This document shows positions 28,646 to 48,855 of a stretch of DNA of 55,396 nucleotides, piece after piece. The stretch is from a bacterium (GTDB lineage Bacteria > Patescibacteriota > Dojkabacteria > JAKAPS01 > JAJZLI01): positions 1 to 55,396 of the forward strand of contig JAJZIL010000005.1 in NCBI GenBank assembly GCA_021810605.1, given 5' to 3'. Position numbers and translations under genes: made by a program. How positions within the stretch are numbered: the stretch's first letter is position 1; each line of letters starts with the position of its first letter. Below the pieces are notes generated by a model. The model worked only from the letters and a program-made list of their open reading frames with translations. It was not told the DNA's origin and did not search any database.

Positions 28646-29329
28646 ATGGTAGAGAATAGATATAGTAAAGTTCTAGTAGTTGAAGATGAACGAAAGATAT
28701 CTAATTTTATTAAGAGGGGTCTTTTAGATTCAGGATATTCTGTAGATACAGCATTTACAGGAGAGGAGGCATTAGATAAAATACATGATGAGTATAATCT
28801 TATTATTCTTGATTTAATGCTTCCTGATATGGATGGGTTTGATATTTGTGCAAAGATTAGAAGATCAAAAATACAAACTCCAGTTTTAATGTTAACTGCT
28901 AGAAATTCAACAGAAGATAAAATTAAAGGTTTAGATATTGGTGCAGATGATTATCTAACCAAACCTTTTGCTATAGGAGAACTACTTTCTAGAATAAAAG
29001 CTTTGTTAAGGAGATCACCTTCAATTATAGATGGTATTATTAGTGTAGGTGATTTAACTCTTAATACTAAAACATATGAGGTTTTTCGAAATGGAGTTCA
29101 AATAGAGCTTTCTCAGAAAGAATTTTCGATATTGGAGTATTTAATGGTAAATGAAGGTGTAGTATTGACTCGTACAATGATTGAGGATCATGCTTGGGAT
29201 TATGAATTTGAGGGCTTTTCTAATGTTGTAGATGTTTATATAAGGATGTTAAGAAAAAAAATAGATGATGGATATAAAGAAAAAATTATCAAAACAGTTC
29301 GGGGTGTGGGTTACAAAGTTAAAGGATGA
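28646..29329 (+). CDS. OmpR-family response regulator
   Basis: The 227-residue protein has an N-terminal receiver domain with acidic pocket Glu13/Asp14, phospho-acceptor Asp56 (LIILDLMLPDMDGFD), the conserved TARN and lysine in DDYLTKPF, and a C-terminal winged helix (about 130-225) ending in IIKTVRGVGYKVKG, the OmpR/PhoB signature. It should bind DNA when phosphorylated by the histidine kinase encoded next, whose start lies inside the end of this gene. The gene begins 3 bases after htrA, suggesting that HtrA is controlled by, or reports to, this system. Confidence 0.93.
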   Translation: MVENRYSKVLVVEDERKISNFIKRGLLDSGYSVDTAFTGEEALDKIHDEYNLIILDLMLPDMDGFDICAKIRRSKIQTPVLMLTARNSTEDKIKGLDIGADDYLTKPFAIGELLSRIKALLRRSPSIIDGIISVGDLTLNTKTYEVFRNGVQIELSQKEFSILEYLMVNEGVVLTRTMIEDHAWDYEFEGFSNVVDVYIRMLRKKIDDGYKEKIIKTVRGVGYKVKG

Positions 29330-30722
29330 TCCTATATTTTCAACTTTAAAGTTTAAGTTTTTATTTTGGAACATCATTCTTTCTACTGTATCTATTGCTG
29401 TTATTCTTTTAGTATTTTTTGAAACTACTCAATATATACTCTACTCTCAATTCAATTCTAACTTACTTTATACTGCAAACGAAGTCTCTTCTATTGTAGG
29501 TCATTCGAGTTCATCATTTAGTGCTAATAAGGTATCTCAGTTCCATAATAAAAAATTTATTGGTTATTTTATTGTTGTACTTAATTCTAATGGTCATGTT
29601 GTAGCAGAATCAAATAATATAAAGCTTAATAGTAGTTTTATTACAAGTGTCTTTAATGCAATTCAGGATAAGACTAATTCTTCAGTATTTACACAAAAGA
29701 TAGGTAATCAAGATCTATCTTTAATATCAATTCCTACATTTAATAGTTTTGGAGATCTTTCTGGAGTTGTTATTGTAGGTAATTCTATTAATATAATTCA
29801 TGATACTCTACATACACTATTGATAGTGATGTTTTTTATGGCACTTATATTTATTTTTATAGTAGTGCTATTTACTTTTTATTTTTCTGATAAGATTACT
29901 GACCCTTTAGCAGATATAACATCTCAGATAGTATCTATAACAGGATTTAACTTAAATCAAAGGATTAAGACTAAGAACTATGATAAAGAATTTAATACTA
30001 TGTCTGAAGAATTTAATAAGCTTCTAAATAGATTAGAGAATACTTTTGATAGAGAAAAGAGTTTTATAAATGATGTAGCTCATGAAATAAAAACGCCATT
30101 AGCAATAATTAATGGTGAGACTGAGCTTTATTTAAAGAGTAAAAAAGATGATATAGTATCATATAAAAAGATGTTGGATGCTAATTTGTATCAAGCAAGA
30201 AAAATTGAGAAAGTTTTAAATGATGTATTATCTTTAGCAAGGGTAGAATATAATACTTCATCTTATATAACTGAAAAGATTGATATACAGTCTCTACTCT
30301 CAGAGATTGCAATGGATATGAAGATTATTGCACAAACAAAAGGTATTGAATGTAATTATATTATAAATGGTAAAGATTTTTATGTTTTTTCGAATAAGGA
30401 AAATTTATCAAAGGCAATTTTGAATATTTTAACTAATTCTATTAAATATACAAAGAAAGGTAGTGTTATTCTTTCTTTATCAAAAAAGGCGAAGAATATA
30501 TTTATTAGTATAGAAGATACGGGTATTGGTATTAAAGAGGAAGATTTACCTAAAATCTTTAATAGATTTTATAGATCACCAAATGTTAGAAATATTGAGG
30601 GTACTGGGTTAGGATTATCTATTTCAAAGTCAATAATTGAGGGGTATAAAGGAACTATACTTGTGGAAAGTAAGATCTCTTTGGGTACAAAATTTACTAT
30701 AATTTTACCTGAATTTAGATAA
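29304..30722 (+). CDS. Membrane sensor histidine kinase, HAMP type
   Basis: About 472 residues. The GTG at 29304 is chosen because it reduces overlap with the response regulator to 26 bases; an ATG at 29265 would overlap by 65. Two transmembrane helices flank an extracellular sensor of about 120 residues; a HAMP segment (ITDPLADITSQIV) follows. The HisKA domain has the phospho-acceptor in FINDVAHEIKTPLAI, and the ATPase domain has the N box NKENLSKAILNILTNSIKY, DTGIGI and GTGLGLSIS. It is the partner of the adjacent OmpR-type regulator. The extracellular sensor domain, rich in Ser and Asn, has no recognised ligand. Confidence 0.92.
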   Translation: MWVTKLKDDPIFSTLKFKFLFWNIILSTVSIAVILLVFFETTQYILYSQFNSNLLYTANEVSSIVGHSSSSFSANKVSQFHNKKFIGYFIVVLNSNGHVVAESNNIKLNSSFITSVFNAIQDKTNSSVFTQKIGNQDLSLISIPTFNSFGDLSGVVIVGNSINIIHDTLHTLLIVMFFMALIFIFIVVLFTFYFSDKITDPLADITSQIVSITGFNLNQRIKTKNYDKEFNTMSEEFNKLLNRLENTFDREKSFINDVAHEIKTPLAIINGETELYLKSKKDDIVSYKKMLDANLYQARKIEKVLNDVLSLARVEYNTSSYITEKIDIQSLLSEIAMDMKIIAQTKGIECNYIINGKDFYVFSNKENLSKAILNILTNSIKYTKKGSVILSLSKKAKNIFISIEDTGIGIKEEDLPKIFNRFYRSPNVRNIEGTGLGLSISKSIIEGYKGTILVESKISLGTKFTIILPEFR

Positions 30723-35697: not shown

Positions 35698-37014
35698 ATG
35701 ACGAATCTCTTATATGCAAGAACACTGATGGGAATGTCTTTAGGTTTCCATATCATATTTGCATATCTTGGTATTGGACTTCCATTTTTGATATCACTTT
35801 TTGAATTAATTGGTATTATTAAAAAAGATAATAATTACTCTATTTTTGCAAAAAGGCTTTCATATGCTCTAGTTATACTTTTTGCAATTGGTGCCGCATC
35901 TGGGACTCTTGTTGCATTTGAACTATCTTTACTCTGGCCTCCATTTATGAGTCTTATTAGTAAAGTTGATATACTCCCATTTGCTCTAGAGGGAATAGCT
36001 TTTGTAATAGAGGCAATCTTTTTAGGAATATATATTTACAACTGGGATAAATTTAAAACTAAAATAGGTCATTGGATTACATCAATACCTATAATAATTG
36101 GTTCTACTGCATCTGGAGTACTTATTACTACAGTTAATGCATTTATGAATACTCCAGCAGGGTTTAAAATTGTTAACGGAAAAATTACTGATATTCAACC
36201 AATAAAAGCTCTAATGAATCCAATCTCTTTTGCTGAAGTATCTCATGTTATTATTACTGCATATCTCGCTACTTTTTTTACAATTGCAGCAATCTATGCT
36301 TTCTATATACTCAAAGGTAAAAAAGAAAAATATTATAAAAATGTATTAAATGTATCTATGTTTTTAGTACTTATAACATCTGTTCTTACTGCCTTTACAG
36401 GAGATTTACAAGGTAAGGCAGAGGCTTTATATAATCCTGAGAAACTTGCTGCAACAGAAGCTGTTTTTCATACTCATAGTTCCGTTGCAGAAAGAGTGGG
36501 AGGAATATTTTCAAATAATCATCTTATATATGCTCTAAAAGTTCCAGATTTACTGAGTTTTCTTGCATATGGGAATCCTAATGCTAAAGTGGTTGGGCTA
36601 CTATCCTTTCCTAAAAGTAGTTGGCCTCCATTTTTTGTACATTATACATTTGATGCAATGGTTCTTTTAGGTAGTCTTTATGTACTATATTCTCTCATAT
36701 ATGTAATTATACAATTTACAAAAAAGAAATCTTATATTCTTTATAATAAATTAAATCTATATATACTTATTGCTATCGGAATGAGTTCTTTTATAACAGT
36801 TGAACTAGGTTGGATTTCTGCAGAAGTTGGAAGGTATCCATGGATAATTTATCACGTAATGAGAATAAAAGATGCTATAACAAGTTCAGCTTATGTACCT
36901 TTTGTCTTCTATCTATTTCTTCTTACATTTATATTTTTATTTATAATGATGATATTTTTATTAATAAGCTTTTTTAAAAAAAGACCTATTTATAGAGATG
37001 GAATAATAACATGA
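35698..37014 (+). CDS. cydA: Cytochrome bd-type quinol oxidase subunit I
   Basis: CydA carries the haems and quinol site of the oxygen-reducing bd oxidase. The 438-residue protein has about nine hydrophobic helices and recognised family landmarks: His18 in MSLGFHIIFAYLGIG (a haem ligand position near the N terminus), GTLVAFELSLLWPPFM with the conserved glutamate, AFTGDLQGK, and ELGWISAEVGRYPW, the counterpart of the GRQPW quinol-site motif. The loop between the last two regions is short, so this is a short-Q-loop form (E. coli CydA has 522 residues). It overlaps cydB by 4 bases (ATGA). It allows respiration or oxygen removal in a lineage that usually lacks electron transport chains. Confidence 0.93.
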   Translation: MTNLLYARTLMGMSLGFHIIFAYLGIGLPFLISLFELIGIIKKDNNYSIFAKRLSYALVILFAIGAASGTLVAFELSLLWPPFMSLISKVDILPFALEGIAFVIEAIFLGIYIYNWDKFKTKIGHWITSIPIIIGSTASGVLITTVNAFMNTPAGFKIVNGKITDIQPIKALMNPISFAEVSHVIITAYLATFFTIAAIYAFYILKGKKEKYYKNVLNVSMFLVLITSVLTAFTGDLQGKAEALYNPEKLAATEAVFHTHSSVAERVGGIFSNNHLIYALKVPDLLSFLAYGNPNAKVVGLLSFPKSSWPPFFVHYTFDAMVLLGSLYVLYSLIYVIIQFTKKKSYILYNKLNLYILIAIGMSSFITVELGWISAEVGRYPWIIYHVMRIKDAITSSAYVPFVFYLFLLTFIFLFIMMIFLLISFFKKRPIYRDGIIT

Positions 37015-37976
37015 TAGAATATATACTTTTAAATCTTTTATTATTTATATATCTGACTCTTATCTCAATAGAGTTTGGTAATAGTATATATTACTATGTA
37101 TATTCAAAATTAGATATTAATATATCTAAAATAATATTTAGATATACTTCTCCAGTATGGGAGCTTACAAATACATTTTTGGTTCTATTTATTGTATTTT
37201 TAATAGCACTCTATCCAAAAGCACCTCTTATATATGGAACGGTTTTTCTTATCCCTGGATCATTAGCTCTATTCTTTTTTCTTCTAAGATCATTCTCATT
37301 CGTATATATATATGAATTTGATGAAAATAGTATTCTTTTTAGAACCCTTTATGGAGTATCTAGTTTTTTTATCCCAGCATTTCTTTCTCTATATTTTTCT
37401 ATTTCTATCTATAATAACTTTAAAGTTATTGGAAATAGTGTAGTATATTCTCTCCAGTCAATTCTTTTTTCACCTCTTTCAATAGCATTTATTATTTTTT
37501 CAATACTTAATGTTTTATATATATCAGCCTCATTCCTTCTTATGTATACTAAGGAAGATAAAAAACTTGTATCAGAAATTTCAAATGTATTTATAATACT
37601 CTCATCTATTATGCTATTTTTTGTGTCAATTGTATTCTACATATTTCGATCAATTCCATTTTTCTCACAGATACTTAACCATTACTTTTTAATATTATTT
37701 GTATATATTCTCCTCTTTGCACTATCTCAAATGTTTATAGTCTTTAAAGAATATAGGTATTTATTTTCATTTATTCTATTACAGATGTTTTTATTATTTT
37801 TAATATATATTATAGGAAATTATCCATACATATTATATAAAGGTATTAGTGTATATAATATAAATAATTCCGTTGTAATGCAGTATTTACTTTATACTCT
37901 TATTATAGCTATAATACTCATAGTCCCCTCTTTAATATTTTTTATATATTTTTTGAAAAAAAAGAAAAGTGTTTGA
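37011..37976 (+). CDS. cydB: Cytochrome bd-type quinol oxidase subunit II
   Basis: CydB is the haem-free partner of CydA. The 321-residue protein is almost entirely hydrophobic with about eight or nine helices. It keeps SPVWELTNTFLVLFIVFL (the counterpart of the P-WDGNEVWL motif, with the charged residues largely altered) and LRSFSFVYIYEFD at the second conserved site. It is shorter and more divergent than typical CydB (about 335-380), and identification leans on its overlap with cydA. Its stop overlaps the GTG start of the next gene by 8 bases. No cydX-like small subunit or CydCD exporter is seen nearby. Confidence 0.85.
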   Translation: MIEYILLNLLLFIYLTLISIEFGNSIYYYVYSKLDINISKIIFRYTSPVWELTNTFLVLFIVFLIALYPKAPLIYGTVFLIPGSLALFFFLLRSFSFVYIYEFDENSILFRTLYGVSSFFIPAFLSLYFSISIYNNFKVIGNSVVYSLQSILFSPLSIAFIIFSILNVLYISASFLLMYTKEDKKLVSEISNVFIILSSIMLFFVSIVFYIFRSIPFFSQILNHYFLILFVYILLFALSQMFIVFKEYRYLFSFILLQMFLLFLIYIIGNYPYILYKGISVYNINNSVVMQYLLYTLIIAIILIVPSLIFFIYFLKKKKSV

Positions 37977-41372: not shown

Positions 41373-43640
41373 TTATTTAAGTTTTAATTTTTTGAAAACA
41401 TCTTGTGTTTGAAATTGAGTATTATCATATTGCTCTACATCTTTTGCTACTGGTATTTTAAATGAAAAAATGGATCCTTTTCCTACTATACTCTCTAACC
41501 ATATTTTCCCATTCATCCTTTCTATTAGACCTTTTACTACATATAGTCCTAATCCTGTTCCACCAGGTCTTACTAATAAATGTTTTGTATCTTTTGGATC
41601 ATTTGGATTTCCTATATAATTATTTAATCTGTGAAATTTTTGAAATAAATTAGGTATTTCTTCTTCAGGTATTCCTACACCATCATCTTTTATATGGACA
41701 GTTACAAATTCTTTCCCATCTTCTGTGCTTATCTCTACTTCTCCTCTTTCAGAATATTTTATAGCATTTGAAATTAAATTACCTAAAATTTCCTCTACTT
41801 TTGTCCTATCTCCATAGACCATATGAATATTATTTTTCTTATAGATTATTTTTATGCCTTTACTCATTGCTTCTTTTTTAAATCCGTCAACTTGACTTTC
41901 TATCATGGATACTAAATCTAAATTTTCTGGAAGTATAGGTACATTGGATTTACCCATTCTTGAAGCTTCAAGTAAAGTATTTATTATTCTTATCTCACTT
42001 TCAATACTTTCTATACTTCTCTGTATATATCTATCCAACTTTTCTATATATTCATTATTTCTTTTATTTTTAGGGAGAGTTTTAATATATGATTTAATTG
42101 TAGATTGTGCCATATATACATTACCTTTAACTATACTAGCAGGAGTTCTTAGTTCATGTGATGATATTGAAATTAAATCATCTTTGAGTTGATCTAACCC
42201 TTTTAATTCTTCATTTGCTCTTTTCAATTTGTTATTATTCTCTTCTAATTCTTTTGTAGCTGTGGCTATTTTATCTTGTAGATTTAAACTGAAATCTTTA
42301 GTTTTTTTGTAAAGATTAATATTATTTATAAATAAACTTAATTGTAGACTGATTTTATTTAATATATCTATATCATTTCTATAATATATATCATTGGAAT
42401 ATTTTCTACCTAATAGTATTGTTGCAATTGTCATATTTTCATAAATTATTGGAATAATAACTTCTATTCCAGAATTTATTAAAGTTCTATATTTACTATC
42501 TTCTTTTTTATCAATATAATCAATTATAATAATGTTATTAGGGGTATTAATTATTTGTAAATTTTTTTCTATTATAGCTTTATCTATATTATAGCAATAA
42601 ATATTATAATCATAGGATGTATTTATTATTAATACTATTTTATTTGTTCCAAATATATTTAAAATAGAATTTTTTAATAATTCAAAAAAATTATCTATAT
42701 CTAAATATTTATTTATGGATTGAAATAAATTATCAACTTCTTTATTAGTATCACTAATTTTTCTAAATATATATCTATCTAATAATATAGATATATATTT
42801 TTTTAATATAGGAAAAATTATTAAAATTATTAAAGAAAAAATGATTTCAAATAAGTTCTCATCGTTAGTAATTTTTAATTGTAATATGTTTATTGATACT
42901 ATTAATGTAATAATTAGTATTATATAAGATAATAGATATATTAAAATAGCTCTTGTAGCGATAGCAAGATTAAAAAGTTTTCTTTGTGTAATAGAATATG
43001 AAATTATTAAAAATATTAATATAGTATATAAATTCTGAGTTATAATAGAAAATTGATCTATTTTGAAAAATATAGGTAATAATATATTAAATATTATTAC
43101 AAAAATAAAAAATAATGAAAATGATAGATAAATATATTGTATTTGTAGTTTTTGGTAACTATTAGATTTTTTATATCCAATATAAAATTTATAAAGTAAA
43201 TATATTACAGTTAATATATTTATTATTACGAAAATATATATACCAAATCCAAGCTGAGGTGTTATATTTTTTGATATAGTTACTGATTTAAAAGTTAAAT
43301 TTGAAAAGATCAATAATTCCATAAATAGAGATAATATAGTTAAATATATTAATTTTTTTATATATTTTTCATTAATCTTTTTTATAGAAAAAGAATCTAT
43401 GAATACTAGTAAAGACAATATTAGTATATATCCTAAAAATGCAGTAGATCTAATATAAAATAAAGTTAAGTTTTCACTAGGTGTATTAAATGATAAATAA
43501 TCAGCTATATTAACTAAAGAGAATAATATTATGATAGAAAAAAAGGAAAATGATTTGAAATTAACTTTTTGATTGAATATAACAATTACTCCTAAGAGGA
43601 ATAGTATAAAAATAGAAACAAACGTTATTATTTCATTCAT
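41373..43640 (-). CDS. 7TM-GAF orphan sensor histidine kinase
   Basis: The 755 residues start with a membrane domain of seven or eight hydrophobic helices (1-240) resembling the histidine kinase N-terminal 7TM family, then a further helix region (to about 275), a GAF-like domain (about 300-445), a coiled coil rich in Glu/Asn/Lys (about 455-485), HisKA with His495 (SISSHELRTPASIVKG), and an ATPase domain with NAIKYSERGEVEIS, DDGVGIPEEEIPNLFQKFHR and GGTGLGLYVVKGL. No response regulator gene is adjacent. It is the third gene of the operon with the ThiF-like and LuxE-like genes (gap 45 bases), so it may sense their product or control it. Confidence 0.9.
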   Translation of the reverse strand: MNEIITFVSIFILFLLGVIVIFNQKVNFKSFSFFSIIILFSLVNIADYLSFNTPSENLTLFYIRSTAFLGYILILSLLVFIDSFSIKKINEKYIKKLIYLTILSLFMELLIFSNLTFKSVTISKNITPQLGFGIYIFVIINILTVIYLLYKFYIGYKKSNSYQKLQIQYIYLSFSLFFIFVIIFNILLPIFFKIDQFSIITQNLYTILIFLIISYSITQRKLFNLAIATRAILIYLLSYIILIITLIVSINILQLKITNDENLFEIIFSLIILIIFPILKKYISILLDRYIFRKISDTNKEVDNLFQSINKYLDIDNFFELLKNSILNIFGTNKIVLIINTSYDYNIYCYNIDKAIIEKNLQIINTPNNIIIIDYIDKKEDSKYRTLINSGIEVIIPIIYENMTIATILLGRKYSNDIYYRNDIDILNKISLQLSLFINNINLYKKTKDFSLNLQDKIATATKELEENNNKLKRANEELKGLDQLKDDLISISSHELRTPASIVKGNVYMAQSTIKSYIKTLPKNKRNNEYIEKLDRYIQRSIESIESEIRIINTLLEASRMGKSNVPILPENLDLVSMIESQVDGFKKEAMSKGIKIIYKKNNIHMVYGDRTKVEEILGNLISNAIKYSERGEVEISTEDGKEFVTVHIKDDGVGIPEEEIPNLFQKFHRLNNYIGNPNDPKDTKHLLVRPGGTGLGLYVVKGLIERMNGKIWLESIVGKGSIFSFKIPVAKDVEQYDNTQFQTQDVFKKLKLK

Positions 43641-43685
43641 TATTCTAAATATACACTACTTAAATTTATTTTTAAATAGTACTTT

Positions 43686-45125
43686 CTATACCTGTTTTAT
43701 TTTATTTTTTGTTTTGAATGAATTATCTGGACCAAACTCTTCAAGTATAATTTGAGGAACAGCTTTTTCTTTTATTGAACTAATTAATTTATTATATTCT
43801 CCATTTATTTTTCTTAAATTTCGTACAAAAGTTTCTTTTATGAATTTCTCATCATTTTTTGAAATTTGAGAATATGATAAATTAGGGGATAATTCTAAAT
43901 GTAATTTAAATATAGGATTTCCATTAGGGTCTAATTCTTGGTATGCTCTAAATTTACCTGAAATCAGTGATAATAATTCTTCTGATTGTATTGAACTTTG
44001 AATATGAAAACTTGGTATTTTAACTGAGTAAAATGATAAAACAACATCTTTTTTAGAAGATATAAATATAAAAGGATTTTTGTCTTTAGGCTTAAAATTA
44101 GGTATTTTTTCTTTAATATATTCCTCTAATTTATTTGATGTAATTATTCCTCCATTATCATTTAATGTATATCTGATTAAAGGAGTATTAGATGTAAAAT
44201 CTGTTATGACAATTAGTCCATTTTCTGATACTTGGAAAAAATGTTTATTAGGATTATATTGATAAATAGATGGTATATATTTTGTATTAAAAATTTTTTC
44301 AATTTCATTCTCATTTAATCTTTGTTCCATTATTAATTTTAATTCTGGAGTATAGTCATTATCAATTGCCATAATTCCTACTTCTGAAGCTGCATATAAT
44401 GATTTTAATCTGCCTTTTCCAATTATTGACTCTACCCTTTTTCTAATTTCATTTGATAAAATATCTCCTCCTACATAGGCATAGATATTAATATTCTTAA
44501 TGAGATTTTTTTCTTTTGCTATATCAATTATATCTTTTGTTGAGCTTGTATATCCTATTAGTACTAAAGTATTAATTTTTTCTTTTTTTACATAATGTTC
44601 TAATATCTTCATATTTTCATCAATATCTAGTCCAGGAGTTATAAATTGAAAGGAATCTAATTCTTGAGATAATATTCTAAATACTCTAGACATTAACCCT
44701 CCTGCACCCCAAACTCCCATACCAGCTGTTACTATTCCTAATATAGTGTCAATATTATCAATATTATCAATATCTTTTTCTATCCTAGATTTAAAATCTG
44801 CAGCAATAGACATATCTAAGTTCTCATCTTGTGCCCAATAATGAGGTTTACCACTAGATCCTGAAGAAGAGAGTATTTGTGTTATTTTTGTTGGATCTAT
44901 AGATCTATCTTTCAAAGAAAATAACTCTATATAATTTTCTTGATTTGTATACGGGAGTCTATTAAAATCATCAATATTTTTTATATCAGATATATTTATT
45001 TTTTGATCAGATAAGAATTTTATATATGCAGGAATTTTATGTGCATATAATAGAAAATTACTCAATACTTTCTGTTGACTTATTTCTATTATATCTACAG
45101 TTTGTTTACTATCTACTTTATACAT
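43686..45125 (-). CDS. LuxE/PaaK-like acyl-activating enzyme (ANL superfamily)
   Basis: The 479-residue protein has the adenylate-forming core motifs: the A3 phosphate loop ILSSSGSSGKPHYW (residues 84-97), a Gly-rich MGVWGAGG segment (136-143), the A5-type YAASE (244-248), and TPLIRYTLNDNG (314-325), the (R)xYxxxDxG motif. The order resembles phenylacetate-CoA ligase and LuxE-type acyl-protein synthetases, which activate a carboxylic acid as acyl-AMP before transfer to CoA, a protein or an amine. Substrate and acceptor are unknown. It lies 20 bases after the ThiF-like gene, another adenylating enzyme, and before the 7TM kinase. I infer that it prepares an acyl-derived signal or modification. 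Confidence 0.72.
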   Translation of the reverse strand: MYKVDSKQTVDIIEISQQKVLSNFLLYAHKIPAYIKFLSDQKINISDIKNIDDFNRLPYTNQENYIELFSLKDRSIDPTKITQILSSSGSSGKPHYWAQDENLDMSIAADFKSRIEKDIDNIDNIDTILGIVTAGMGVWGAGGLMSRVFRILSQELDSFQFITPGLDIDENMKILEHYVKKEKINTLVLIGYTSSTKDIIDIAKEKNLIKNINIYAYVGGDILSNEIRKRVESIIGKGRLKSLYAASEVGIMAIDNDYTPELKLIMEQRLNENEIEKIFNTKYIPSIYQYNPNKHFFQVSENGLIVITDFTSNTPLIRYTLNDNGGIITSNKLEEYIKEKIPNFKPKDKNPFIFISSKKDVVLSFYSVKIPSFHIQSSIQSEELLSLISGKFRAYQELDPNGNPIFKLHLELSPNLSYSQISKNDEKFIKETFVRNLRKINGEYNKLISSIKEKAVPQIILEEFGPDNSFKTKNKIKQV

Positions 45126-45145
45126 ATTTTATATACATAATTTAT

Positions 45146-46219
45146 TTAAATTCTAATTCTTGATGAATAATTATATCCCAATGCATGTTGTATAATTACA
45201 TTTGTTACTCCAGCTCCTGCATGAGAGGATGCAGTTACTAATTGACTCATCCAGAATAGTTCTCCTTTTGACATAGCTTTAAAATGTCTAGACATTCTTT
45301 CAATTTCTTCAAAATTAACACCTAAAATTGCAGATATTATTTCAACTAAATCTTTAGGATCTAAACTATTCATTTCTTCAATTTTTTTTAATTGATATGT
45401 AGATAATCTACCCAAGAATATCTTATCTTTTGGAGTTTCAATATCAATTAGTGCTCCAAGTTCTAAATCAGTACCCATAACTACAGTAAATCCCATCTCT
45501 TTAGATAATTTTCTTAATTCTAATTTTAAAGGTAGTGTATCAAATGCATCTACTACATAATCTAAATCTTCTGTAAATAATTTTAAATCATTCTTATTGT
45601 TTAATCCATTAGGATAATATTTTATCTTAAGATATGGATTAGATTCTAAAGCTAATCTTCCTGCTAAATAAGTTTTATTTAATCCTAATTCTGTAATTCC
45701 GGAACGAGGTAATCTATTACTGTTTGATAAAGATAATGTATCATAATCAGCTAATCTATATTCATTACCTGTTCCAGATTTTATTAAATTTAATAAACTT
45801 GATTGTCCTACACTAAGTCCTATAATTCCAATTTTCAAATTATACAATGTTTTTTGTTCTAAATTAGTTATTTGTTCTCTATTTCTCGATGTATTAACAA
45901 GTCTTAGATACTCTTCAATAGGAACAAAAGATAAATTTCCATTCCAAGGAAAATATATGAGATTAAATTTAATTTTATTACTATTTTTAAATTCATTTAA
46001 CTGTTTAGAATATTTGGGATTTTTAGGGTGGATATGCGGATATAGTGAATTAAATATTTCTTCTAAAATATCTATTCTTTTATCATATATTGATAAAATT
46101 TTGTTATTAGAAACGAAATTTTCTAAATTTACTTGATCATTAGGATCTAAAAATACAACCTCTGGACTAACCATATCTTTTTTTGCAGTTTTTAAAATCA
46201 AAGAATCTATAATTTTCAT
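45146..46219 (-). CDS. ThiF/E1-like adenylyltransferase, Rv1355c-like, without cysteines
   Basis: Residues 1-110 form an unassigned N-terminal region (YDKRIDILEEIFNSLYPHIH is typical of the Rv1355c-like group). Residues 125-290 form a Rossmann-type ThiF domain: LKIGIIGLSVGQSSLLNLI, LADYDTLSLSNSNRL (with the D and NR pair that bind ATP), GLNKTYLAGRLA and VDAFDTL. There is no cysteine in the 357 residues, so neither an E1 thioester site nor a Zn(Cys)4 site exists; the enzyme could adenylate a substrate but not carry it as a thioester. The C-terminal helix region (from about 290) is unrecognised. It is the first gene of the minus operon and has a TTGACA promoter. Confidence 0.78.
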   Translation of the reverse strand: MKIIDSLILKTAKKDMVSPEVVFLDPNDQVNLENFVSNNKILSIYDKRIDILEEIFNSLYPHIHPKNPKYSKQLNEFKNSNKIKFNLIYFPWNGNLSFVPIEEYLRLVNTSRNREQITNLEQKTLYNLKIGIIGLSVGQSSLLNLIKSGTGNEYRLADYDTLSLSNSNRLPRSGITELGLNKTYLAGRLALESNPYLKIKYYPNGLNNKNDLKLFTEDLDYVVDAFDTLPLKLELRKLSKEMGFTVVMGTDLELGALIDIETPKDKIFLGRLSTYQLKKIEEMNSLDPKDLVEIISAILGVNFEEIERMSRHFKAMSKGELFWMSQLVTASSHAGAGVTNVIIQHALGYNYSSRIRI

Positions 46220-46248
46220 GTTGCCCTATAGTGTATGTATGTGAAAAT

Positions 46249-46277
46249 ATTCTCTCATAATTATATTTTTTTGTCAA
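46249..46277 (-). promoter_or_regulatory. Promoter of the ThiF-LuxE-kinase operon
   Basis: On the minus strand TTGACA (46277-46272), a 17-base spacer and GAGAAT (46254-46249) lie 29 bases before the ThiF ATG at 46219. The -35 box is perfect and the -10 moderate (four of six). Confidence 0.55.
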
Positions 46278-46295
46278 TAAAATTATGCGTCATTA

Positions 46296-46324
46296 TTGAA
46301 AAACACTATAAGTTTTGATATAAT
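46296..46324 (+). promoter_or_regulatory. Promoter of the TraD-fragment and HTH regulator operon
   Basis: TTGAAA (46296-46301), a 17-base spacer and TATAAT (46319-46324). The predicted leader to the TTG at 46400 is about 70 bases, unlike the short leaders elsewhere. Confidence 0.7.
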
Positions 46325-46399
46325 GTGTCCGTATTTATAATTAAATAGTGTAGATACTTTTAATTACAGTTCTTAATTATTTGAGTATTTTGTGTATCT

Positions 46400-47182
46400 T
46401 TGTTATTTAAAAAAGATTATATATTTGAAGATATTAATAGTTCATCAATTCTTAGAATTGCTGTTCCTAAGAACAATGATAAGACTCCTTTATCCGGAGA
46501 ACAACTTTTTACTTCCATTCATGGTATATTAGATGATTCTAAAATTTCTAAGAATCATTTTAGTTTAGAAATAGTATCCTCTTTTGATGGTATTTCTTTT
46601 TATGTAGTTATTCCAAAGGAATATAGAAATTTCATAAAAGGTCAAATTTATGCACAATACCCTACTGTTGAGATTAATGAAATTGACGATTATACAAATC
46701 AATTTCATAATTATAAATACTTCTTTTCATCAGAGATATCTTTTGGAAAAGAGTATATATTCCCAATAAGGACATTTCCTAACTTTGATGTTGATCCTCT
46801 TTCATCTATAACTATTGCAATGAGTTCTAAATTAGATGAATTCCAATTATTTGGCACAAATGCTTTTTCGAAAATTTTATCAGAATCAAGGAAATATAGA
46901 TTGAATTTAATACTAGCTCATCAGTATATTTCTCAATTAGAAGAAGATATTCAAAATGCTATATTTATAGGAGAAGATTTGATATCATTAGAGAAACATC
47001 ATTTTTATATAAAGTTAATGATTGATGGTATGATTTCTAAACCTTTTATTGGAATATCAATGAATATTCAATATGAGAGGAATAATAATAAAGAAAAAGT
47101 TTTGAATGTATCAAAAGAACATTATTCTAGGAGAAAAGAAATTTTTGAAGATAAAATAAATCGTTGGTCAAATAATAACTAA
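46400..47182 (+). CDS. Internally deleted TraD/TraG-like ATPase of CPR type
   Basis: The 260-residue ORF begins at TTG 46400 (no ATG is available). Residues 14-135 match the N-terminal domain of large CPR type IV secretion-like ATPases: SSILRIAVPKNNDKTPLSGE, then FYVVIPKEYRNFIKGQIYAQ, YPTVEI and VDPLSSITIAMS. The sequence then jumps to the Walker B region (LDEFQLFGTNAFSKILSE, from residue 145) and RKYRLNLILAHQYISQLEED, and jumps again at about residue 190 to LISLEKHHFYIKLMIDG. The Walker A domain and the stretch after QNAIF are missing, yet the frame is intact. It is the first gene of the HTH regulator operon, 1 base before it. It is probably not an active ATPase; the remnant may be retained as a binding protein. 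Confidence 0.72.
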   Translation: MLFKKDYIFEDINSSSILRIAVPKNNDKTPLSGEQLFTSIHGILDDSKISKNHFSLEIVSSFDGISFYVVIPKEYRNFIKGQIYAQYPTVEINEIDDYTNQFHNYKYFFSSEISFGKEYIFPIRTFPNFDVDPLSSITIAMSSKLDEFQLFGTNAFSKILSESRKYRLNLILAHQYISQLEEDIQNAIFIGEDLISLEKHHFYIKLMIDGMISKPFIGISMNIQYERNNNKEKVLNVSKEHYSRRKEIFEDKINRWSNNN

Positions 47183-47183
47183 T

Positions 47184-47990
47184 ATGAAAAATAACATAGG
47201 AGAATATATAAAAGCAGAGAGATTGAGATATAAGAATGGTAATAATATTGGAATAAGTCAGATTGATTTGTCACTGAAAATAGGTTGGGAGAACCCATCT
47301 ACACTATCACGAATAGAGCAAGGTAAAATAATTCCTACAAAAGAAACAGTAATAAATATATTTGAAGCATTAGAAATTCCTCAAGAAGTAGTAGTTTGTA
47401 TTTTTATAAAAAGTAATTATTTATATACAGGAGAAATTCTTACAGAGAAATATATAGAAAAAGTCACAAATTCTTTAATATCTAAAATTGACTTATTAAA
47501 AGTCCCGACTTTTTTAATAAGTTATCCAAATGACTCTGTATTACATATTAATAATATAGGTAAAAAAGTATTTTTTGGAGAAGAGATTAATTCTGAATTA
47601 GAAAATATTCTCTTATCTGGAGAGAGTTTTGTGAACATAATTTTTAATCCTAATTATATAATGAAAGATTTGATATTAAATTGGGAAGAATTTGTAAAAA
47701 TTATAATATCTAATCAACATATTATATATAATGATACAGATAAAGAGAGAGAAGATATTAGGGTATTAAAAAAATTTCCTAGATTTAATGAATTTTGGGA
47801 AGATTCTCAAAATAAAACAGTACATGATTTTCAATCTTTTAATATTCCTTTTAAATATAACTCACCTATTCTTGGTGAAATAAAATTTTTAATACAAGAG
47901 ACTCCAGTATTAGAAGATAATAGATTTTTTATTATTCAATTTATTCCTGCAATTAGAAAAGATTTCATTAAATTAGAAGGTTTAAAATAA
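47184..47990 (+). CDS. HTH (XRE) regulator with MmyB/MltR-like ligand-binding domain, first copy
   Basis: Residues 6-70 form an XRE-type helix-turn-helix (ISQIDLSLKIGWENPSTLSR as the recognition region). Residues about 100-268 resemble the MmyB-like transcription regulator ligand-binding domain, a PAS-like fold: VPTFLISYPNDSVLHINNIG (the DxxxxINxxA-type strand), ESFVNIIFNPNYIMKDLILN with WEEF, and FPRFNEFWEDSQ near the end. To my knowledge members of this domain family have been found with fatty acid bound. The gene starts 1 base after the TraD fragment and 4 bases before a paralogue. It is likely to sense a small hydrophobic ligand and to bind the divergent control region. Confidence 0.75.
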   Translation: MKNNIGEYIKAERLRYKNGNNIGISQIDLSLKIGWENPSTLSRIEQGKIIPTKETVINIFEALEIPQEVVVCIFIKSNYLYTGEILTEKYIEKVTNSLISKIDLLKVPTFLISYPNDSVLHINNIGKKVFFGEEINSELENILLSGESFVNIIFNPNYIMKDLILNWEEFVKIIISNQHIIYNDTDKEREDIRVLKKFPRFNEFWEDSQNKTVHDFQSFNIPFKYNSPILGEIKFLIQETPVLEDNRFFIIQFIPAIRKDFIKLEGLK

Positions 47991-47994
47991 CTCT

Positions 47995-48855
47995 ATGTTG
48001 AATAATATTTATACAAATGAAGATCTAAAAAAAGTAAAGATTGGAAAATTAATCAAAGATTTCAGGTTAAGAAAAATTGGAGATAATGGAAGGCATTGGT
48101 CTCAGTTAGATTTAGCAAATGCAATAGGATGGGAGAATCCTTCGACTTTATCTAGAATAGAAAATAGTCAAATAAAGCCATACCGAGATACAATTTTAAA
48201 AATATCAAAATGTTTAGATTTAAATAATGAAGATACGAATACACTTTTAAAGAAAGCTGGATACTCAGAGTATGGAGAAAGGATAGTTCCTTCTTATACT
48301 GAGAGATTAATAGACCGTATAAAAAATGAGCTAGAATTATATGATTTTCCGGTAATGGTTAATACTATAAATAATCTTGAAGAGATAATATATATAAATT
48401 CTGCCAATGCAATATTTTTTACTGAATACGAAAATCATAAATCCCTTATAAAAGATTTAAATGGAATAAGTTTTTTTGATATTATTTTTACAGATGATTT
48501 TGGGTTTAAAAAAAATATACTAAATTATGAAGAGTTCATTTATTCTTTTACTTCGAATATATATATGATGTATGCAAATTTTACTAATGAGGAAGAATCC
48601 TTAAATATAAATAAAAATTTAGATAAGTATAAAGATTTTAAAGATGTATGGAAGTCTATCTTTAATAAAGATCATAATAGTTTGAAAATTAAAGGAATTC
48701 CGTTAGAGTATAATATATCCAAATTAAATAAAAAAATAAGATTTTTGATATTAACATTTCCAATATATATAGATACTAGATTTTTATCTGAGCATTTTGT
48801 TCCTACGGATAAAAAATTATATTCAGAAATTTTAAATGAGTTAGCTTTATTTTAA
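47995..48855 (+). CDS. HTH (XRE) regulator with MmyB/MltR-like ligand-binding domain, second copy
   Basis: The 286-residue paralogue of the preceding gene shares IGWENPSTLSRIE in its helix-turn-helix (about 35-75) and the same C-terminal layout: FPVMVNTINNLEEIIYINS, ISFFDIIFTDDFGFKKNILN, NYEEF, YKDFKDVWKSIFNKD and a closing RFLILTFPIYIDTRFLSEHF. Similarity outside the HTH is modest, so the pair has diverged, perhaps to bind different ligands or to form a heterodimer. It lies 27 bases before the phosphohexomutase gene, which may share the transcript, although a TATACT box at 48869-48874 could give that gene its own start. Confidence 0.75.
   Translation: MLNNIYTNEDLKKVKIGKLIKDFRLRKIGDNGRHWSQLDLANAIGWENPSTLSRIENSQIKPYRDTILKISKCLDLNNEDTNTLLKKAGYSEYGERIVPSYTERLIDRIKNELELYDFPVMVNTINNLEEIIYINSANAIFFTEYENHKSLIKDLNGISFFDIIFTDDFGFKKNILNYEEFIYSFTSNIYMMYANFTNEEESLNINKNLDKYKDFKDVWKSIFNKDHNSLKIKGIPLEYNISKLNKKIRFLILTFPIYIDTRFLSEHFVPTDKKLYSEILNELALF

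Follow-up and report, generated by a model that had tools for sequence, protein, structure and literature searches.

A Patescibacterial locus with a ThiF-like enzyme, a PaaK-type ligase and a 7TM histidine kinase as a candidate make-and-sense signalling cassette

In the CqsA/CqsS, LqsA/LqsS, ComQXP and Agr systems, the gene for a signal synthase adjoins that for its membrane histidine kinase, and in ComQXP and Agr a conserved kinase half carries a sensor half that differs along with the synthase. In Mycobacterium tuberculosis and related bacteria, oxazolones are made by TrzS, a ThiF cyclase fused to an oxidase, which acts with ATP on N-acyl tryptophan, the N-acyl amino acid being supplied by a distinct acyltransferase (PMC12856293; PMC10404671), and TrzS with a mutated ATP-binding Asp fails (PMC12856293). 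The PaaK-family ligases NatL2 (nataxazole) and ClxA (closoxazole) join two acids as an ester or amide without coenzyme A (CoA), and another enzyme closes the ring (PMC7204872; PMC12118335). Adjacencies of LuxI homologues with sensory kinases, and of CqsA with CqsS, were reported in genomes of the candidate phyla radiation (CPR) in 2020 (PMC7567580). Here we analyse a stretch of 55,396 nucleotides from a member of the Dojkabacteria (Patescibacteriota; GenBank assembly GCA_021810605.1, contig JAJZIL010000005.1, positions 1 to 55,396 of the forward strand; hereafter the window), in which positions 41373-48855 encode a ThiF-like enzyme, a PaaK-type ligase and a seven-transmembrane (7TM) histidine kinase opposite two helix-turn-helix (HTH) regulators. 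We read this locus as one allelic form of a modular Patescibacterial cassette for make-and-sense signalling, with a probability of about 0.6.

This reading is favoured because many genomes keep synthase genes close to one for a membrane histidine kinase and because the sensor is replaced together with the enzymes. The linkage was measured with a ligase profile made from Patescibacteria homologues, followed by profiles of the 7TM family and the Rv1355c family, all run on the same 380 Patescibacteria genomes, most of the genomes compared being metagenome-assembled and their neighbourhood gene calls mechanical. The ligase gave 55 matches in 54 genomes, spanning dozens of families. Within 10 kb of these 55 loci, a TrzS/Rv1355c-type ThiF gene was found at 41, mostly <100 bp away, a flavin oxidase matching the other half of Rv1355c at 32 and a HisKA_7TM sensor at at least 31, the last count being a lower bound because the window's own sensor escapes the HisKA_7TM model; chance expectation for such association is ~1 in 100 loci. 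Seen from the other partner, the ligase is present in 42 of 46 genomes with a long-type ThiF (hypergeometric 3e-40, shared ancestry ignored). An independent scan started from ThiF and covering 84,980 named species returned 47 loci, with ligase at 45/46, oxidase at 36/46 and kinase at 34/46. All of its matches that bear a lineage name are Patescibacterial (Doudna-, Kaiser-, Taylor-, Lipton-, Uhr-, Magasanik-, Parcu- and Paceibacterota, plus one record labelled Gracilibacteria), several carry no lineage name, and the scan patterns were built from Patescibacteria sequences, so other phyla are not excluded. A preliminary description of the window, made from its letters, had tied its signalling proposal to co-occurrence of these proteins in CPR genomes; ligase, ThiF and 7TM kinase do co-occur.

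The usual gene order is precursor enzyme, ligase, ThiF, oxidase and 7TM kinase, often with a divergent single-domain response regulator, and tailoring enzymes such as hydrolases and methyltransferases occur in some cassettes. The gene upstream of the ligase is of one of three kinds. It encodes a lyase of aromatic amino acids (Pfam Lyase_aromatic, with the flexirubin Tyr lyase FlxA as best NCBIfam model), a dehydrogenase whose nearest relative is the Trp dehydrogenase ScyB, or an aminotransferase of class I/II; all three could convert amino acids to acids of the cinnamate or alpha-keto type, which the ANL ligase could activate. The selectivity pair of the cassette ammonia-lyases is Ser-His, which does not single out Tyr, His or Phe as the substrate. 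We also observed that their MIO triad is Thr-Ser-Gly rather than Ala-Ser-Gly in 5/6 cases (L091, L092, L097, L102 and L105). A parallel, ligase-free form (L081-L085, L087 and L088) combines a FeeM/LuxI-like N-acyl synthase with a short ThiF, a 7TM kinase and, in some loci, a response regulator. At the DNA level, a plasmid search returned no ligase cassette, only actinobacterial Rv1355c-like loci and ThiF+GNAT or ThiF+KASIII loci. The preliminary description knew of no system of this composition, and none was found in the literature searched, coverage of which is incomplete. We consider it likely that the gene module is real, conserved and, as far as the literature shows, undescribed, and that a small-molecule make-and-sense system is its best explanation.

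In the window, all six genes of the locus have intact reading frames and lie at the coordinates first given. The minus-strand operon runs from the ThiF-like gene (46219-45146) through the ligase gene (45125-43686) to the gene for the 755-aa kinase (43640-41373), with intergenic spacers of ~20 and ~45 bp. The first product, a putative ATP-dependent cyclase of the Rv1355c/TrzS type, is ThiF-like as first described (Pfam ThiF, 8e-16) and has the Rv1355c family as its best NCBIfam model (PRK07877, 1e-45; 156 bits, under the 476-bit cut-off for the two-domain protein). Its Arg, Lys and Asp columns, which we take to be the catalytic residues of E1/MoeB/ThiF enzymes, are invariant across 18 homologues, window included, and its top Protein Data Bank (PDB) relative is TcdA, the tRNA t6A cyclodehydratase. 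The ligase, of the adenylate-forming ANL superfamily, has weak NCBIfam matches to PaaK/FlxY and a PDB profile match to PaaK 4r1l (8e-27), and its AlphaFold2 (AF2) model (pLDDT 84.6) retrieves BT_0428 and PaaK1 best in Foldseek (E ~1e-22), then NatL2, ClxA and AjiA1; the P-loop SSGSSGKP and the C-terminal catalytic Lys are invariant in the alignment. Of its original label, LuxE/PaaK-like, the PaaK part is thus upheld by profile and structure, and LuxE membership was rejected, as there is no LuxE Pfam match at E<=1.

These assignments allow a tentative biochemical scheme. Given the chemistry of TrzS and that of NatL2 and ClxA, the ligase most likely makes an amide or ester that the ThiF-like enzyme would cyclise, and the ligase-free form with its FeeM/LuxI-like synthase supports a swap of ligase for acyl synthase; amide, ester and CoA-thioester formation by the ligase cannot be told apart from sequence. 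The ligase would convert a carboxylic acid to acyl-AMP and couple this with an amino acid or a comparable amine. The TrzS-type ThiF would then adenylate the new carboxylate and close the ring, so that the product would be a small N-acyl-amino-acid compound, oxazolone-like or related. The adjacent 7TM kinase would detect this product and signal to a response regulator encoded elsewhere. The preliminary description had proposed an acyl compound; the partner families (TrzS-type ThiF, nitroreductase-like oxidase, aromatic lyase, ScyB-like dehydrogenase and FeeM) point to an aryl/acyl amino-acid heterocycle and not to a plain fatty acid. For the cassette in general, we rate oxazolone-like chemistry at a little under an even chance, and lower for the window's own reduced version, which, without oxidase and precursor enzymes, would make a non-desaturated product from an acid of other source.

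The nearest relatives of this scheme share parts of it. With OxzAB of Pseudoalteromonas rubra, TyzABC and TrzAS of M. tuberculosis, the cassette shares the Rv1355c/TrzS-type ThiF cyclase and the aromatic amino acid theme, as well as, in most Patescibacterial relatives, the nitroreductase-family oxidase and, in variant cassettes, a FeeM/LuxI-like synthase in the manner of TrzA/TyzA. It differs in having a PaaK-type ligase in place of the N-acyltransferase and a built-in 7TM histidine kinase, none being described for Oxz, Tyz or Trz in the papers cited here; the window locus has neither a FeeM/OxzA/TrzA-type N-acyltransferase nor the oxidase. The benzoxazole pathways (NatL2/NatAM; ClxA/ClxD and Pfx) likewise use a stand-alone PaaK-family ligase to join two acids before a separate enzyme closes the ring, but there a zinc amidohydrolase takes the place of ThiF, and no 7TM kinase is linked. 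CqsA/CqsS, LqsA/LqsS, ComQXP and Agr share the synthase-kinase adjacency and differ in their unrelated synthase chemistry; the cassette kinases here have a HisKA_7TM-like sensor. The CPR pairs of LuxI homologue and kinase express the same idea in the same phylum and may overlap the FeeM-ThiF-7TM variant; the main text of that report never mentions ThiF, LuxE or phenylacetate ligases (PMC7567580).

The kinase carries the second line of evidence. It matches Pfam HATPase_c (8e-27) and HisKA (1.5e-5), its phosphoacceptor His is invariant, and the AF2 model of its sensor has seven helices, with a beta-hairpin inserted between the fourth and the fifth; the 7TM and kinase parts of the earlier label, a 7TM-GAF histidine kinase, were recovered in this way, and its GAF part found no Pfam support at E<=1. 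Pfam HisKA_7TM (PF16927) does not match the window kinase and does match that of the related genome G006 (8.6e-5) and cassette kinases. The 50 best PDB matches of the sensor model (residues 1-300; 42741-43640, minus strand) are all G-protein-coupled receptors of classes A and C, none of them significant (E >= 0.013, TM-score <= 0.53).

Domain-wise identities divide the protein into an exchanged sensor half (residues 1 to ~455; ~42276-43640, minus strand) and a conserved kinase half (~41373-42275, minus strand). The kinase domain is 79-82% identical to those of G001, G002 and G005 and 60% identical to that of G006. The 7TM sensor is 40% identical to that of G006, which among the family members with an available kinase sequence is the sole other one to carry ligase and ThiF, and 21-27% identical to those of G002 and G005. 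The same chromosomal site in G005 retains TauE (86% identity), a 113-aa gene (77%), the kinase half (78%), the HerA/TrwB-like gene (77%) and phosphomannomutase (80%); between these conserved parts, the sensor is 23% and ThiF 25% identical and an unrelated 279-aa protein replaces the ligase, with the drop in kinase identity starting near residue 455. In G002, a methyltransferase gene precedes the kinase. Judged by these identities, sensor half and enzymes were replaced jointly on a kinase half that was kept, an exchange resembling ComQXP and Agr polymorphism. Elsewhere, many genomes place a 7TM kinase next to another kind of synthase (FeeM-like, ThiF, methyltransferase), and across 94 kinases sensor similarity tracks gene context (partial Mantel r 0.27, P 0.0005). 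The earlier proposal that the enzymes make a compound sensed by the kinase is therefore strongly supported by comparative genomics (co-occurrence and sensor-plus-enzyme replacement). As separate observations, the gene preceding the kinase differs among these family members (methyltransferase, 279-aa protein or ligase), and the kinases at L230 7358-9553 and L173 3969-6221, of one family, are 77-82% identical in their kinase halves with unrelated sensor halves.

Several results weigh against a make-and-sense cassette in the window. The reverse Mantel control, though weaker (r 0.13, P 0.003), also reaches significance, and nearest neighbours by sensor agree in context no better (65/94) than those by kinase (61/94). 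In control pairs, sensor identity trails kinase identity (70% vs 92% for G003/G007; 50% vs 91% for G040/G029): sensors generally evolve faster than kinase domains, which partly confounds the co-variation result. No response regulator lies beside the operon. The window genome encodes no homologue of the FDO (nitroreductase-family) flavin oxidase, no ELFV dehydrogenase and no aromatic lyase, and has one weak match to a class I/II aminotransferase, which leaves the acid substrate unexplained; substrate and product would therefore be unlike those of full cassettes, or environment-dependent. The cassette's product and ligand are predictions from gene families. The response regulator at 28646-29326, considered as a partner for the kinase, was rejected because it belongs to its own neighbouring kinase (29265-30719).

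The operon faces a plus-strand run of a HerA/TrwB-like remnant (46400-47182), HTH regulator 1 (47184-47990), its divergent paralogue regulator 2 (47995-48855; 33% identity) and phosphomannomutase. The 180-bp region said to be shared by the two divergent gene sets spans exactly 46220-46399 and holds one sigma70-like match per strand (46296-46324, plus; 46277-46249, minus), a number not above shuffled expectation. Both regulators match Pfam HTH_3 (regulator 1 at 3e-8). Regulator 1 matches PDB 3pxp, an MmyB-like HTH protein, over its full length (4e-11), and its C-terminal domain alone does so at 2.9e-6, as the only clear PDB match of that domain. The MmyB-like domains of the preliminary description accordingly hold at the level of fold, a shared HTH with a homologous C-terminal domain, and fail at the Pfam MmyB model, which has no match in either protein at E<=1. 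The 3pxp structure was reportedly solved with myristate bound.

These regulators seem tied to the module at the level of the class. Full or partial members of their family are present in 24/86 genomes of the window's class, and 16/24 fetched stretches also have a histidine kinase, usually 7TM, beside enzymes that vary: ligase (L226), ThiF (L173), and polyprenyl synthases or UbiA (L219, L220 and L224). The pair was rejected as a universal cassette part, being absent beside the G006 operon and from most of the phylum and restricted to the class. Within the class the regulators are plausibly a component of the 7TM module, probably a second, cytoplasmic reader or an output regulator of the class-specific version. 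At the G005 site, the ortholog of regulator 1 is 73% identical in the DNA-binding domain and 36% in the ligand domain, and regulator 2 is missing; ligand-domain divergence was rejected as proof that the regulators read the same signal, because in controls the ligand domain always outpaces the DNA-binding domain. Among side observations, L176 8653-11838 places an HTH pair and 7TM kinase with DDAH-like, HisRS-like and family-less 348-aa proteins, a similar DDAH/aaRS-like pair occurs in L218, and loci from other families of the class (L218, L219, L220 and L224) combine MmyB-like HTH and 7TM kinase with polyprenyl synthases, UbiA prenyltransferase or an HD protein, possibly as an isoprenoid version of the module.

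The gene at 46400-47182, first described as a TraD-like fragment, is indeed shortened, and its label gives way to that of a HerA/TrwB-like ATPase remnant. Relative to the intact 748-aa G005 homologue (L173 8537-10783), to whose ends it is 77% identical, it has in-frame deletions of 460 and 27 codons that remove the Walker A region and leave the frame open, and it is probably outside the signalling core. Elsewhere in this 0.75-Mb genome, cytochrome bd oxidase subunits I and II are encoded at 35698-37973 (plus strand).

Of the other explanations, the strongest is that the enzymes produce a metabolite for export, be it antibiotic-like, surfactant-like or host-acting, and that the 7TM kinase regulates its production on an unrelated cue. 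Benzoxazoles, N-acyl amino acids and oxazolones are often bioactive (PMC12856293; PMC7204872; PMC12118335), and the tailoring hydrolases and methyltransferases of some cassettes would suit such a product. A regulator indifferent to the product does not, however, predict the exchange of sensor half with enzymes on a kept kinase half, nor does this account sit well with the adjacency of 7TM kinases to alternative synthases in many genomes, and we regard it as unlikely. Sensing of host fatty acids or lipids by the kinase and the MmyB-like regulators, with the enzymes salvaging or detoxifying the same lipids, draws on the relation of the MmyB-like domain to 3pxp and on the dependence of Patescibacteria on host lipids; it is improbable, given that the cassette holds enzymes for ring formation and for aromatic precursors, not genes for beta-oxidation or lipid assembly, and that the sensor varies with enzyme type among relatives.

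Protein modification would cast ThiF as an E1-like activator and the ligase as a LuxE-like acyl-protein synthetase, together labelling a protein. ThiF does match PADLOC E1-E2 models weakly (1e-5 range) and LuxE is itself an ANL enzyme, but the cassettes showed no recognisable gene of ubiquitin-like, E2-like or JAB-like type, the family model is that of the small-molecule cyclase TrzS/Rv1355c, and the TcdA relationship and missing LuxE match also speak against it, making this more improbable still. That the neighbourhood is fortuitous in this genome could be argued from the same-genus G001 and G002, which are without ligase and ThiF, and from the decay of the adjoining HerA/TrwB-like gene; co-occurrence across dozens of families strongly disfavours it, and we give it hardly any weight.

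A make-and-sense cassette thus remains our preferred reading, and it leads to a broader and more speculative proposal, which we rate a little below the oxazolone-like chemistry itself: Patescibacteria may use a new autoinducer class of aryl-/acyl-amino-acid oxazolones and relatives, made by ligase and ThiF with or without the oxidase and read by 7TM kinases, with synthase and sensor half exchanged between lineages as 'pherotype' cassettes on a conserved kinase/regulator chassis. If so, oxazolone-type metabolites would gain a first dedicated receptor. Communication among the ultra-small, host-dependent Patescibacteria is largely uncharted. The biological role of oxazolone lipids, those of M. 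tuberculosis included, has been stated as an open question (PMC12856293). As ~1 in 7 sampled Patescibacteria genomes puts oxazolone-type enzymes beside a receptor kinase, both questions become directly testable. The conserved kinase chassis with its interchangeable sensor and enzyme halves also provides a natural library in which 7TM sensors can be paired with small molecules.

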